Shown here one piece after another: positions 46,854 to 51,073 of a DNA stretch of 64,000 bases. Each line of letters opens with the position of its first letter. Position 1 is the stretch's first letter. This stretch comes from Candidatus Poseidonia sp. GTDB lineage: Archaea; Thermoplasmatota; Poseidoniia; Poseidoniales; Poseidoniaceae. Position numbers and translations under genes: made by a program. The notes below the pieces were generated by a model. The model saw only the letters and a program-made list of their open reading frames with translations, had not been told where the DNA came from and did not search any database. The stretch spans positions 1 to 64,000 of the forward strand of contig JAKMEE010000012.1 in the NCBI GenBank assembly GCA_022426155.1. The letters are read 5' to 3'.

Positions 46854-48026
46854 ATGGTTGATGTTGCAGTGGTTGGTGCAGGCCAGACAAAATATGGCAA
46901 TCATCCACTTGGACTCAAGGGCATGTGGGCCGAAGCAGCAGAACGGGCCTTTGCATCGATTGACGGCGATTTTTCTCCCTCCATGGTGGATGAAGCCTTC
47001 ATCGGTAGTTTAGCGTTCGGTGGTGCTCAACTTGGCAACACTGCGGCTTTGTTAACTGAACATTCAGGCATGGATGGTGTGCCAGTACGGCGAGTTGAAA
47101 ATGCCTGTGCATCCTCTGGATTTGCATTCCGAGATGCCTGGATGGCCATCAAGAGTGGTCAAGCAGATGTTGTCGTTGCCGGCGGTATTGAAAAAATGAA
47201 TGATCTCACTCCTGAAAGAAAGCGATTCTGGCTAGGTGTTTCGGGTGATACAGAGTGGGAGCGATTGGCTGGTTTGACGTTTCCTGGCACCTATGCTTTG
47301 ATGGCACGCCGTCACTTCCATGAATACGGCTCGACACATGATGATCTTGTCAATATTAGTGTCAAGAATCACGCACATGGAGCCCTCAACCCTTTGGCTC
47401 ATATTCAGAAACAGGTTACTTTTGAGAAAGCTGCTAGCGGTTTCATGGTAGCTGACCCATTGACCCTCTACGATTGTTGTCCTACTTCTGATGGGGCCTC
47501 TTGCGTCATTCTTGCTGCAGACCATGTGGTCAAGCGCTTTACAGATTCACCTGTCTGGGTTCGTGGTTCTGGTGCTGCGTCTGACAATCTTGCTTTGCAT
47601 GACCGCCCATCCATCACTCAACTGAAAGCTACCCAGCAGGCAGCAAAACTCGCCTATGGCCAAAGTGGCCTGACGGCCAACGATATTGACCTCGCAGAGG
47701 TACATGATTGCTTTACGATAGCCGAATTGATGGCAACCGAAGATCTTGGCTTTGCTGAACGTGGCCAGGGCGGTGAGTTTGCTCGTGAACAACGTGGAAT
47801 GCTGAACCAAGGAAATGTCACCATCAATCCAAGTGGAGGTTTGAAATCAAAGGGTCACCCACTTGGAGCGACAGGAACGGGCCAAGTCGTTGAAGTCTTC
47901 AAACAACTCCGTCATGAAGTTGAGCAAGGGCGACAAGTGGACGATGCTGAGAACGCACTCACTCACAATGTGGGTGGTTCTGGAGCCACGTGTGCGGTTC
48001 ATGTTTTCGGGAGGGAAATCGCATGA
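46854..48026 (+). CDS. Archaeal-type thiolase (acetyl-CoA C-acyltransferase)
   Basis: A 390-residue thiolase of the archaeal/SCPx-like branch. The active-site cysteine is in R-V-E-N-A-C-A-S-S-G (C85). The H-D-C-F-T motif and the C-terminal N-P-S-G-G-L-K-S-K-G-H-P-L-G-A-T-G with its catalytic histidine are intact. This branch makes acetoacetyl-CoA for the mevalonate pathway, or cleaves 3-ketoacyl-CoA, usually together with a DUF35 protein that follows here. ATG 46854 gives the family N-terminus M-V-D-V-A-V-V-G; ATG 46830 is an alternative. Confidence 0.93.
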   Translation: MVDVAVVGAGQTKYGNHPLGLKGMWAEAAERAFASIDGDFSPSMVDEAFIGSLAFGGAQLGNTAALLTEHSGMDGVPVRRVENACASSGFAFRDAWMAIKSGQADVVVAGGIEKMNDLTPERKRFWLGVSGDTEWERLAGLTFPGTYALMARRHFHEYGSTHDDLVNISVKNHAHGALNPLAHIQKQVTFEKAASGFMVADPLTLYDCCPTSDGASCVILAADHVVKRFTDSPVWVRGSGAASDNLALHDRPSITQLKATQQAAKLAYGQSGLTANDIDLAEVHDCFTIAELMATEDLGFAERGQGGEFAREQRGMLNQGNVTINPSGGLKSKGHPLGATGTGQVVEVFKQLRHEVEQGRQVDDAENALTHNVGGSGATCAVHVFGREIA

Positions 48027-48856
48027 TGGAATCCGACGTTTGGAAGGGCTATCTTGCTGCGTGGACAGAACAGTGCATTATGATACAATCACCCTTCGTT
48101 CACAAAGGCATACGTGTATTTGGCCCTGATAGTGATTATACAACCTTCGCAATAGCTGCGATTCAACTTCATCTACAAAATGGTGGTCTGTTGAGTGTAG
48201 TTTCAGCACCTTCAGAAATTGAACCAAGTATTGTTCAATATGCAACGGGAATTGAAATCTCAACGATGGATAACGATTCAACTCCAGAGTGGGACCTCCT
48301 GATTGGTGACGATGCTACAGTGGTACTCGCCTTGAACAATTCCTCATTTGAACTACCAGAATTTGAAACCAAAATTGAGGTTGATGCCCAATTCCATGAG
48401 AGTATGATGGCAGCTTGGAAGAAAGAACTCAATATCTCGAATGTTAGTCAAGGCGCCTATGTTTCAATGGCCCTTTACAATGAGGGGGCAAACACAAGGA
48501 TGACACTTGCAAGTGATGTTTTTGGAAATGGCCCGGTTTGGCCCCCCAGACAAATGGATTCATCCGGTCAACGGCCTGATGTACAGCGCCAACCCTTGCA
48601 AACAAACGGGATTGTTGAATCATGGACTGCTCTTTCAGCCGCTGGTGCACCATCTGAATTTTCATTGAGAGCTCCACTTTTAGAGGGCTTGACAACGGTA
48701 TATGTCCGCCTCACAGACGGTCCTCATGGTGTGTTTTTGATGGTTGATGATGAGGAACATGATATTTCAATCGGAAATTCAGTTGAATTTGTTATTCGTA
48801 GGATTTACGGTCAAGAAAGTGTTGTTCGATATGGCTTGAAGGCTCGACCCATTTGA
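48023..48856 (+). CDS. DUF35/OB-fold protein with unusual N-terminal region
   Basis: A 277-residue protein whose start overlaps the thiolase stop (ATGA). The last roughly 85 residues (N-G-I-V-E-S-W-T-A-L-S-A to V-V-R-Y-G-L-K-A-R-P-I) have the profile of the DUF35 OB-fold, which usually accompanies archaeal thiolase and HMG-CoA synthase as an acyl-CoA channelling partner. The usual zinc ribbon before the OB-fold is absent. Instead there are about 190 residues; the stretch V-F-G-P-D-S-D-Y-T-T-F-A-I-A-A-I faintly recalls HMG-CoA-synthase-like thiolase folds that are fused to DUF35 in some prokaryotes. No catalytic residue could be assigned. Confidence 0.6.
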   Translation: MMESDVWKGYLAAWTEQCIMIQSPFVHKGIRVFGPDSDYTTFAIAAIQLHLQNGGLLSVVSAPSEIEPSIVQYATGIEISTMDNDSTPEWDLLIGDDATVVLALNNSSFELPEFETKIEVDAQFHESMMAAWKKELNISNVSQGAYVSMALYNEGANTRMTLASDVFGNGPVWPPRQMDSSGQRPDVQRQPLQTNGIVESWTALSAAGAPSEFSLRAPLLEGLTTVYVRLTDGPHGVFLMVDDEEHDISIGNSVEFVIRRIYGQESVVRYGLKARPI

Positions 48857-48898: not shown

Positions 48899-49915
48899 AT
48901 GGCAGGTTTTGGCGGATTGCGAAAAGGCAGGAACGAGGCGATAGACAACCTCGGTTATAACGAAGAAGGTGATTGTCCGCGATGTGGTGGTAATGCCCAA
49001 GATTCAACCATGAAAGGTTACCTTCAATGTGGTTCTTGTAGTCATGAGTGGCAGGACCCAAATTATGTTGAAGAGAAGAAGGTTATCGAACCACCGACCT
49101 ACAAACGTGATGAAGAATTGATTCGGCAATTCAAAGAAGATATTCAATCTGGTGAACTTGCCAATGTATTGGGCGTTCAATCAGAATTATCAACAGAACA
49201 AGAACAATCTCTGAAGCGATTGGAGGACAAGTGGATGTCTGGCATGCAAGGACACTTCAATGCAGCTGTTGAAGAACGTAAGCCGTTGATGATTAGTTTT
49301 GATGACGAGGATAATATCCTTTCGACTGAAGTTGCTTCTGTAACAATTGTGGCCAACGGATTCGATGGTGGCGAGGAAATTCGTCTTGAATATCCCGGAA
49401 AAGGAACCGAATTTTACGCTTTCAATGAGCGAAGTCCTACAGGGTGGAAGCGTGGACAAAATGCTGAGGCCACGGCCCGATCAATTGCGAACGTCATTAA
49501 TCGTTCATCTCGTTTGGTTTTTGCAAATATCAATGGACCACGTATCGGATTTGAATTACGCGATGAGTCACTGAAAGCAGCCTCATTTGTCTTATTTGTT
49601 GATGACCCCGGCGGCACGGACATTATCGCTGAGAAGGGAGGAGTTGTCTTGGACGCAAGAGATCCAGTTTCATTCGAAGATTATCGCAATGTCGTCAAGT
49701 TGGTTCTGGAAGACGGAATCATTTCACCAAGTGAAGATCAACTTCTCTGGGCGATTCGGGAACAACTAGGTATTGATGATTCATATCACGTTCAATTGGT
49801 GTTGGAAATCTGTGGTGAAAACACATTGAAGGAATGTACCAATTGTGCAGGAATGGCTGAATTGTATCAAGAATATGCTGCTTGGTATTGTCATGCTTGT
49901 GAAGACTGGTGTTGA
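48899..49915 (+). CDS. Zinc-ribbon protein with TerB-like segment
   Basis: A 338-residue soluble protein. It opens with a zinc ribbon (C-P-R-C near 26-29, C-G-S-C near 44-47) and closes with another (C-T-N-C near 315-318, C-H-A-C near 333-336). In between, residues about 90-250 look beta-rich, and about 260-300 (L-V-L-E-D-G-I-I-S-P-S-E-D-Q-L-L-W) resemble the first helices of TerB/DnaJ-associated domains. No membrane segment is seen. It precedes the MamK-like actin gene by 132 bases. I do not recognise a family. Confidence 0.65.
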   Translation: MAGFGGLRKGRNEAIDNLGYNEEGDCPRCGGNAQDSTMKGYLQCGSCSHEWQDPNYVEEKKVIEPPTYKRDEELIRQFKEDIQSGELANVLGVQSELSTEQEQSLKRLEDKWMSGMQGHFNAAVEERKPLMISFDDEDNILSTEVASVTIVANGFDGGEEIRLEYPGKGTEFYAFNERSPTGWKRGQNAEATARSIANVINRSSRLVFANINGPRIGFELRDESLKAASFVLFVDDPGGTDIIAEKGGVVLDARDPVSFEDYRNVVKLVLEDGIISPSEDQLLWAIREQLGIDDSYHVQLVLEICGENTLKECTNCAGMAELYQEYAAWYCHACEDWC

Positions 49916-50047: not shown

Positions 50048-51073
50048 ATGGCAAAAGAGACGTTGTATATTGGAATTGATTTGGGAACCTTCCGTTCTGT
50101 GATGGTCTCATCTGACAGTCACGAAGTCGAAGAATTGACAGTTATTGGTACGCCAAAAGATGCGATTGCACGAAATTTCCTCAAGCGCGATGTGCTCTTC
50201 GGAGAAGAAGCACTCAAGAACCGTTTAGCATTGAATCTTTACCGCCCTCTTGAACTCGGTGTCATCAAGGACACCCCTGAAGACCGAGAATATATTGCGC
50301 ACTTTATCACTCATCTCATTGGACTCTCCGACCCCGAAGAGTACGACCGTGTGGTTGCAGTTATTGGTGCACCTGCTGAGGCTAGTTATGTCGATAAGAC
50401 GGCTATCTTTGATGCAGCAGCAGGATCCGTTAACTCTGCAATGATTATTTCCGAACCATTTGCTGTGGCTTACGCATTGGACATGCTAACACATACTCTC
50501 GTGATTGATATCGGAGCAGGTACGACTGACTTATGCCGCGTTTACGGAACGATCCCAGGTCCTGGAGACCAAATGCACACCGGCTACGCTGGTGATTATG
50601 TAGATAACCAAATCATCAAGGAAGTTCAGAAGAAATACAACGGTGCCCAAATCACAAAGGACATGGCTCGTCGATGGAAGGAACAACATTCTTTTGTTTC
50701 AACATCAGCACCGGATGAACCCATTCTCGTGGATTTCTCAATTGAAGGAAAGGCCATGACACTTGACATCACAGATTGCATTCAGCGAGCCTGTGAATCC
50801 ATTGTTGACCCTATTGTTGAAAATGTGAAGGCACTTATTGCTGGATCTAACCCTGAATACCATAATGAATTCCGTAAGAACATGGTCCTCGCAGGCGGTG
50901 GCTCTTCAATTCGTGGACTCGGCGCACTCATTGAACGTCGTCTATCCGACATGGGTGATGTGAACGTTCACGTCGTTGATGACCCAGTCCGCCTCGGCGC
51001 TATGGGTGGTCTACGATTGGCTATGGAAGTTCCAGAGGAGATGTGGAAGAACCTCACTTTGGCCAGTCGTTGA
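50048..51073 (+). CDS. MamK/MreB-like actin
   Basis: A 341-residue actin-family ATPase. Phosphate-1 is G-I-D-L-G-T-F-R-S (9-17), phosphate-2 D-I-G-A-G-T-T-D (154-161) and the adenosine motif A-G-G-G-S-S-I-R-G (282-290). Several segments match MamK of magnetosomes more than MreB as I remember it: Y-P/R-P-L-x-x-G-V near 66-72, E-P-F-x-V-x-Y-x-L-D, V-Y-G-T-I-P-G-P-G-D-Q near 165-175, and the ending G-G-L-R-L-A-x-E-x-P-x-x-x-W. It presumably forms cytoplasmic filaments; its cargo or role is unknown. ATG 50048. Confidence 0.88.
   Translation: MAKETLYIGIDLGTFRSVMVSSDSHEVEELTVIGTPKDAIARNFLKRDVLFGEEALKNRLALNLYRPLELGVIKDTPEDREYIAHFITHLIGLSDPEEYDRVVAVIGAPAEASYVDKTAIFDAAAGSVNSAMIISEPFAVAYALDMLTHTLVIDIGAGTTDLCRVYGTIPGPGDQMHTGYAGDYVDNQIIKEVQKKYNGAQITKDMARRWKEQHSFVSTSAPDEPILVDFSIEGKAMTLDITDCIQRACESIVDPIVENVKALIAGSNPEYHNEFRKNMVLAGGGSSIRGLGALIERRLSDMGDVNVHVVDDPVRLGAMGGLRLAMEVPEEMWKNLTLASR

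Follow-up and report, generated by a model that had tools for sequence, protein, structure and literature searches.

A pair of MamK-family actins with conserved partner genes in the marine archaeal order Poseidoniales

Introduction

What does an actin of the MamK type do in a planktonic archaeon? MamK forms the filament that aligns the magnets of magnetic bacteria. In the literature it is commonly treated as a magnetosome protein (PMC10653835), and the window analysed here, a stretch of 64,000 nucleotides from a Candidatus Poseidonia sp. contig (JAKMEE010000012.1), carries a gene that a preliminary description had likened to MamK rather than to MreB. That description had supposed a small planktonic archaeon as the host, in agreement with its identity as a planktonic member of Poseidoniales (Marine Group II, MGII) with a small genome, the assembly of which is approximately 89% complete. 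Earlier hints at the breadth of the MamK family are present in the literature (Yutin et al.). In the papers searched, no cytoskeleton study was found for Poseidoniales/MGII, and our literature search found no earlier description of the actin–partner system reported below.

Results

Sequence motifs and nucleotide site of actin A

The gene in the window, hereafter actin A, is located at 50048..51073 on the plus strand, starts with ATG and encodes 341 aa with zero internal stops. As the preliminary description had stated, the actin motifs are intact: both nucleotide-binding motifs, GIDLGT and the phosphate-2 motif DIGAGTTD (50507..50530, plus strand), are present, and E136 within SEPF (50450..50461, plus strand) and D154 within the phosphate-2 motif align with the catalytic E143 and with D161 of MamK, respectively. 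Both residues are invariant in all aligned relatives, the Glu being found in all MamK-family rows and in BeeR.

The segments quoted as family-specific (I-P-G-P-G-D-Q, E-P-F-x-V-x-Y-x-L-D and a C-terminal L-R-L-A-x-E-x-P-x-x-x-W) were all found in actin A, as GTIPGPGDQ at residues 167-175 (50546..50572, plus strand), EPFAVAYALD at residues 136-145 and LRLAMEVPEEMW at residues 322-333 (51011..51046, plus strand), the last of which is a family-wide segment. Based on pattern counts in the alignment, the GTxPxxxDQ block is conserved in 6/6 MGII A, 4/6 MGII B and 26/36 bacterial relatives as well as in AMB-1 MamK and BeeR, but in 0/7 MreB and 0/7 salactin sequences. The block thus marks the whole MamK/BeeR clade and excludes MreB and salactin, giving no indication of magnetosomes. 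A specific likeness to magnetosome MamK was not supported: actin A shares 39.6% identity over 336 aa with AMB-1 MamK, and is equally close to bacterial homologues (approximately 39–46%).

The site corresponding to A278 of MamK is N273 in actin A; it is occupied by D, E or N in the MGII A proteins and often by D or E in bacterial relatives. The A278D change presumably renders AMB-1 MamK non-polymerising, going by the title of PDB 5LJW. The filament interface may thus differ, and the contact at this site has probably changed.

Assignment of actin A to the MamK family

Among the NCBIfam profiles, actin A gave the highest score with MamK (366.6 bits, E-value 1e-109), followed by BeeR (215.6 bits, 9.5e-64), MreB (96.6 and 86.3 bits, 1.3e-27) and salactin (66.3 bits, 2.5e-18). 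Each score lies under the cut-off of its profile, namely, 400 bits for MamK (NF040964), 530 for BeeR, 293 and 365.75 for the two MreB profiles and 400 for salactin, and the MamK cut-off was exceeded by no Poseidoniales genome. In Pfam, actin A was assigned to MreB_Mbl with 95.3 bits, passing a cut-off of 27 that represents a superfamily-level threshold, and its salactin match of 58.5 bits passed the laxer Pfam cut-off of 27.1. The best PDB chains by sequence were AMB-1 MamK (1.9e-76), BeeR (2.7e-45) and MreB (4.9e-15), in this order; no match to crenactin or Ta0583 was recognised in this PDB sequence search. The AlphaFold2 model of actin A, built on 29 relatives (pLDDT 90.7), gave the MamK filament structure 5LJV as its top fold match (TM 0.89/0.93, E 4.5e-39), followed by BeeR (3e-34) and MreB (6e-24).

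Phylogenetic trees were constructed with MreB as the outgroup. The attachment of salactin to MGII B in one tree (84/100; branch length 6.15) was rejected as long-branch attraction, and the final tree was built without salactin. In this tree, the MamK-like set formed one clade, split from MreB with 100/100 support, and the firm clustering within MreB that would have contradicted the preliminary description was not seen. The MGII A (100/100) and MGII B (98/100) groups were recovered as sisters (93/99), A and B constituting an archaeal branch inside a broad MamK family. AMB-1 MamK joined a Rhodospirillaceae sequence (98/100) and a Latescibacterota sequence (90/93). The main MamK-family branches were poorly separated, and we therefore make no claim as to which use of these actins came first. 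Taken together, profile, tree and fold firmly place actin A in the MamK family, apart from MreB and salactin; the early preference for MamK over MreB was upheld by all three, and the separation from salactin by profile.

Distribution of actin A and its paralogue B

A second actin gene, paralogue B, was identified on another contig of the same genome, encoding a protein 47% identical to actin A. The MreB profile matched A, B and a 629-aa reading frame, the last of which was taken to be DnaK. The actin of a Poseidonia sp. locus (L125) is 90.6% identical to A. A MamK-like actin was detected in 198/319 Poseidoniales genomes, consisting of 167/171 genomes of the window's family and 31/148 of the second family, and both A and B are missing from most genera of this second, sister family.

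In the rest of the phylum, a MamK-like actin was found in one sampled genome only, a Thermoplasmata MAG. This protein (L050:7986-9083) scored 435.5 bits, above the NCBIfam MamK cut-off, such that an automated pipeline would label it as a magnetosome-type protein of this archaeon; no magnetochrome domain was found in the MAG. Its estimated contamination is 7%, but the actin gene adjoins an apparent archaeal-type Kae1.

Partner genes of actins A and B

The gene directly upstream of actin A, c1 (48899..49915, plus strand, 338 aa), lies 132 bp away on the same strand and encodes a protein with a zinc ribbon at each terminus, the Cys pairs being conserved at both ends. This arrangement was observed in 16/17 scored A loci; in the exception (L138), the locus is rearranged and c1 is still located a few genes away. 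No Pfam family matched c1 above threshold, and a fold search with its AlphaFold2 model of moderate quality (pLDDT 74.8) gave no convincing PDB match, so c1 offers no pointer to the cargo of A. Phage-tail and flagellin fragments were rejected as fold candidates, with a TM of about 0.2. Between the thiolase gene and c1, a 288-aa protein is encoded at 47990-48856 of the window; it has no Pfam match, and its cluster was found in 8 sampled loci of some genera only.

Actin B is flanked on both sides. Directly upstream in 17/18 scored B loci is c2, the remaining locus (L158) beginning at a contig end. The c2 protein belongs to the subtilases (Peptidase_S8, 4.4e-21); its N-terminus is signal-like, it has a single C-terminal hydrophobic segment, and it is thus predicted to be a type-I membrane-anchored subtilisin-like protease. 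Downstream of B in 17/18 scored loci is c3, whose product, roughly 390-440 aa long, is a coiled-coil protein.

The partner genes and actins are co-inherited. Among the 319 genomes, c1 was present in 179, of which 178 carried a MamK-like actin, and c3 in 177, of which 174 carried one. Within the second family alone, a MamK-like actin was found in 28/29 c1 genomes and 22/24 c3 genomes (Fisher tests of 1e-25 and 5e-17, respectively, both uncorrected for ancestry). These genomes are mostly incomplete assemblies with non-independent histories, and part of the co-occurrence reflects common descent instead of repeated separate events. Archaellin showed no more than a loose association with the actins.

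MamK-like actins beyond magnetosomes

At least 263 relatives were recovered when GTDB contigs were scanned. Most of the 80 best belong to Nitrospirota, Desulfobulbaceae, Planctomycetota, Acidobacteriota, Omnitrophota, Latescibacterota and groups like these, and Methanoperedens is also represented. Using the magnetochrome domain as the marker of magnetosomes, we detected none in 17/19 tested genomes of these relatives; the two positives were a Rhodospirillaceae genome and an Omnitrophota MAG. As judged by this marker, MamK-family actins occur widely among bacteria, and in some archaea, without magnetochrome. The preliminary description had seen no magnetosome genes in the window, consistent with the neighbours of actin A, which encode a thiolase, c1, a DUF2071 protein and a transaldolase. 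Its proposal to search the full genome for mam genes was followed with the magnetochrome marker, for which no match above the cut-off was found in the approximately 89% complete assembly (best E 0.15). With a score below the MamK cut-off and no magnetochrome in its genome, actin A is not a demonstrated magnetosome protein.

Two recurrent arrangements were observed upstream of the bacterial relatives. A cluster of N-acetylmuramoyl-L-alanine amidases lies just upstream in 33/80 loci of many phyla (L052-L082 and others). These were identified by the DPGHGG motif, which by itself occurs in 26/78 upstream proteins compared with 1/681 background ORFs. The pairing of amidase and actin genes thus appears to be widespread. 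Of the non-amidase upstream partners, which are otherwise different proteins, 28/37 have in common a C-terminal segment, LLSKIFEANLELQK (L067, L070, L073, L078, L083, L084, L086-L091, L093, L096, L098-L101, L103, L104, L106, L107, L110, L113, L115, L123, L124 and L129), and this set includes the Omnitrophota genome with the magnetosome marker. The segment could be a MamK-docking peptide. A similar actin-docking motif in c3 was considered on the basis of a likeness seen by eye and was rejected, since a motif matrix trained on bacteria left both c3 and c1 within the background; the C-terminus of the Thermoplasmata partner (L050) likewise failed this matrix.

Two further loci were noted. The gene directly after the Methanoperedens MamK-like actin (L121:9042-9653) encodes a coiled-coil protein in which an archaellum ArlD/E domain was identified (PF04659, 3.5e-14), and the C-terminal end of this protein scores higher for the bacterial segment than the 99th percentile of the background. 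A contig from a viral collection (IMGVR_UViG_3300009370_000045) carries a MamK-like actin 43% identical to A (L216:2995-4038), with major-capsid-like and terminase-like genes, judged by eye, located nearby. A 161-aa protein encoded two genes upstream of this actin ends in the bacterial partner segment (score 25.0, background 99th percentile 10.6), and no match was obtained among 50,697 GenBank phage records.

Discussion

The second paralogue and the strict partner genes tell more of function than the features noted in the preliminary description. We consider it fairly probable that A and B are two partner-linked, filament-forming actins of the MamK family, from a branch confined to Poseidoniales, and that they serve the envelope or positioning in a way that has nothing to do with magnetosomes; the genome examined gave no sign of magnet-making genes, and the filament therefore most likely has another job. 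That A and B polymerise, that they bind their partners and that they have this role is what we infer. By a MamK-like mechanism, A and B would polymerise with ATP into a scaffold or track, to which partner proteins would couple cargo other than magnetosomes. Actin A would work with the upstream c1, beside its paralogue B, and c1 and c3 would serve as adaptors for A and B, respectively; c3 would be cytoplasmic, and c2 may link B to the cell surface or envelope. The location of relatives elsewhere beside envelope or coiled-coil genes (the amidase and the LLSKIFEANLELQK partners) was counted for this envelope or positioning reading. Weighing against it are the residue found at the A278 site, the lack of a convincing fold match for c1 and the part of the co-occurrence that is due to common descent.

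A more elaborate version is rather unlikely as it stands: a two-actin cytoskeleton, in which a coiled-coil adaptor tethers B to a surface protease anchored in the membrane and A is attached to a zinc-ribbon adaptor, would organise a protein-degrading patch on the cell surface or an internal compartment. If so, the magnetosome role would be one of several functions served by an ancient and widespread positioning actin.

Among the alternatives, a function in cell shape or division is a possible but doubtful one. A and B would take MreB-like functions in these wall-less archaea, determining form or septation rather than positioning cargo; the MreB profile gave no actin besides A and B in the genome, and many bacterial MamK-like genes come after N-acetylmuramoyl-L-alanine amidase, an envelope/division gene. 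However, the absence of A and B from most sister-family genera indicates that neither can serve shape or division universally across Poseidoniales, and no known division or shape gene was seen beside either, the partners being zinc-ribbon, subtilase and coiled-coil proteins.

The positioning of archaella or chemotaxis machinery at a pole by the filament is quite improbable. Archaellin is present in most genomes of the window's family, and the Methanoperedens actin precedes an ArlD/E-domain protein, yet no motility gene was seen beside A or B. In the second family, archaellin occurs without the actin in 39 genomes and an archaellin match is missing in 13/31 actin genomes (Fisher p = 0.02, without correction for ancestry). 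This dissociation led us to reject the link. A ParM-type role in DNA segregation is highly improbable: such a role would fit the presence of two paralogues, each with its own small gene group, and of a zinc-ribbon partner that might bind DNA, but the loci are chromosomal, with neighbourhoods conserved among housekeeping genes, the ParM-type family is missing from the Pfam and NCBIfam matches, and a plasmid search gave, among the matches listed, proteins of <60% identity only, annotated, where annotated, as rod-shape proteins. That A is a true magnetosome MamK, as family membership might suggest, with magnetosome genes clustered in another part of the genome and possibly missing from an assembly that is approximately 89% complete, is extremely improbable given the conserved non-mam neighbourhood of A in many species and a marker that went undetected in its own genome yet was detected in two relatives.

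The MamK family reaches through an abundant ocean archaeal order and many bacteria without the magnetochrome marker. This breadth suggests that the magnetosome protein may have specialised from an older positioning actin, a direction left unproven by the resolution of the tree. In addition, c1, c2 and c3 are named, testable partners for an archaeal actin system.

Comparison with known systems

Actin A and AMB-1 MamK (PDB 5LJV, 5LJW and 5JYG) share the same fold and catalytic residues, and A has no large insertions. A differs from MamK in its score of 366.6 bits, short of the cut-off of 400, its other partners, its own branch of the tree and the lack of a magnetochrome marker in its genome. MreB has the actin fold in common with A, but its 96.6 bits lie far under the cut-off and the two are split in the tree. 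Salactin, which occurs in Haloarchaea and other Methanotecta, is an archaeal actin reported to be closest to MamK (PMC10746226); unlike A, which scores 66 bits against its cut-off of 400, salactin has no PGPxDQ block and forms a very long separate branch.

BeeR of Verrucomicrobiota (PDB 8R2N) is likewise a MamK relative in non-magnetotactic organisms and has the PGPxDQ block in common with A. BeeR is defined by a disordered N-terminal extension of 30-50 aa (PMC11929497), whereas the actin core of A begins at residue 3-6 with no such extension; the score of A, 215.6 bits, is also below the BeeR cut-off of 530. MamK-like actins from Nitrospirota, Desulfobulbaceae, Acidobacteriota, Planctomycetota and other groups belong to the same clade as A and, like A and B, adjoin recurrent partner genes. 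The bacterial partners are the cell-wall amidase or proteins with the C-terminal segment, while those of Poseidoniales are neither, c3 having failed the segment test. MamK of a deep-branching magnetotactic bacterium acts together with coiled-coil proteins (PMC12748827); differing in its partners and in having no magnetosomes, the model proposed here for A and B resembles this MamK and coiled-coil system.
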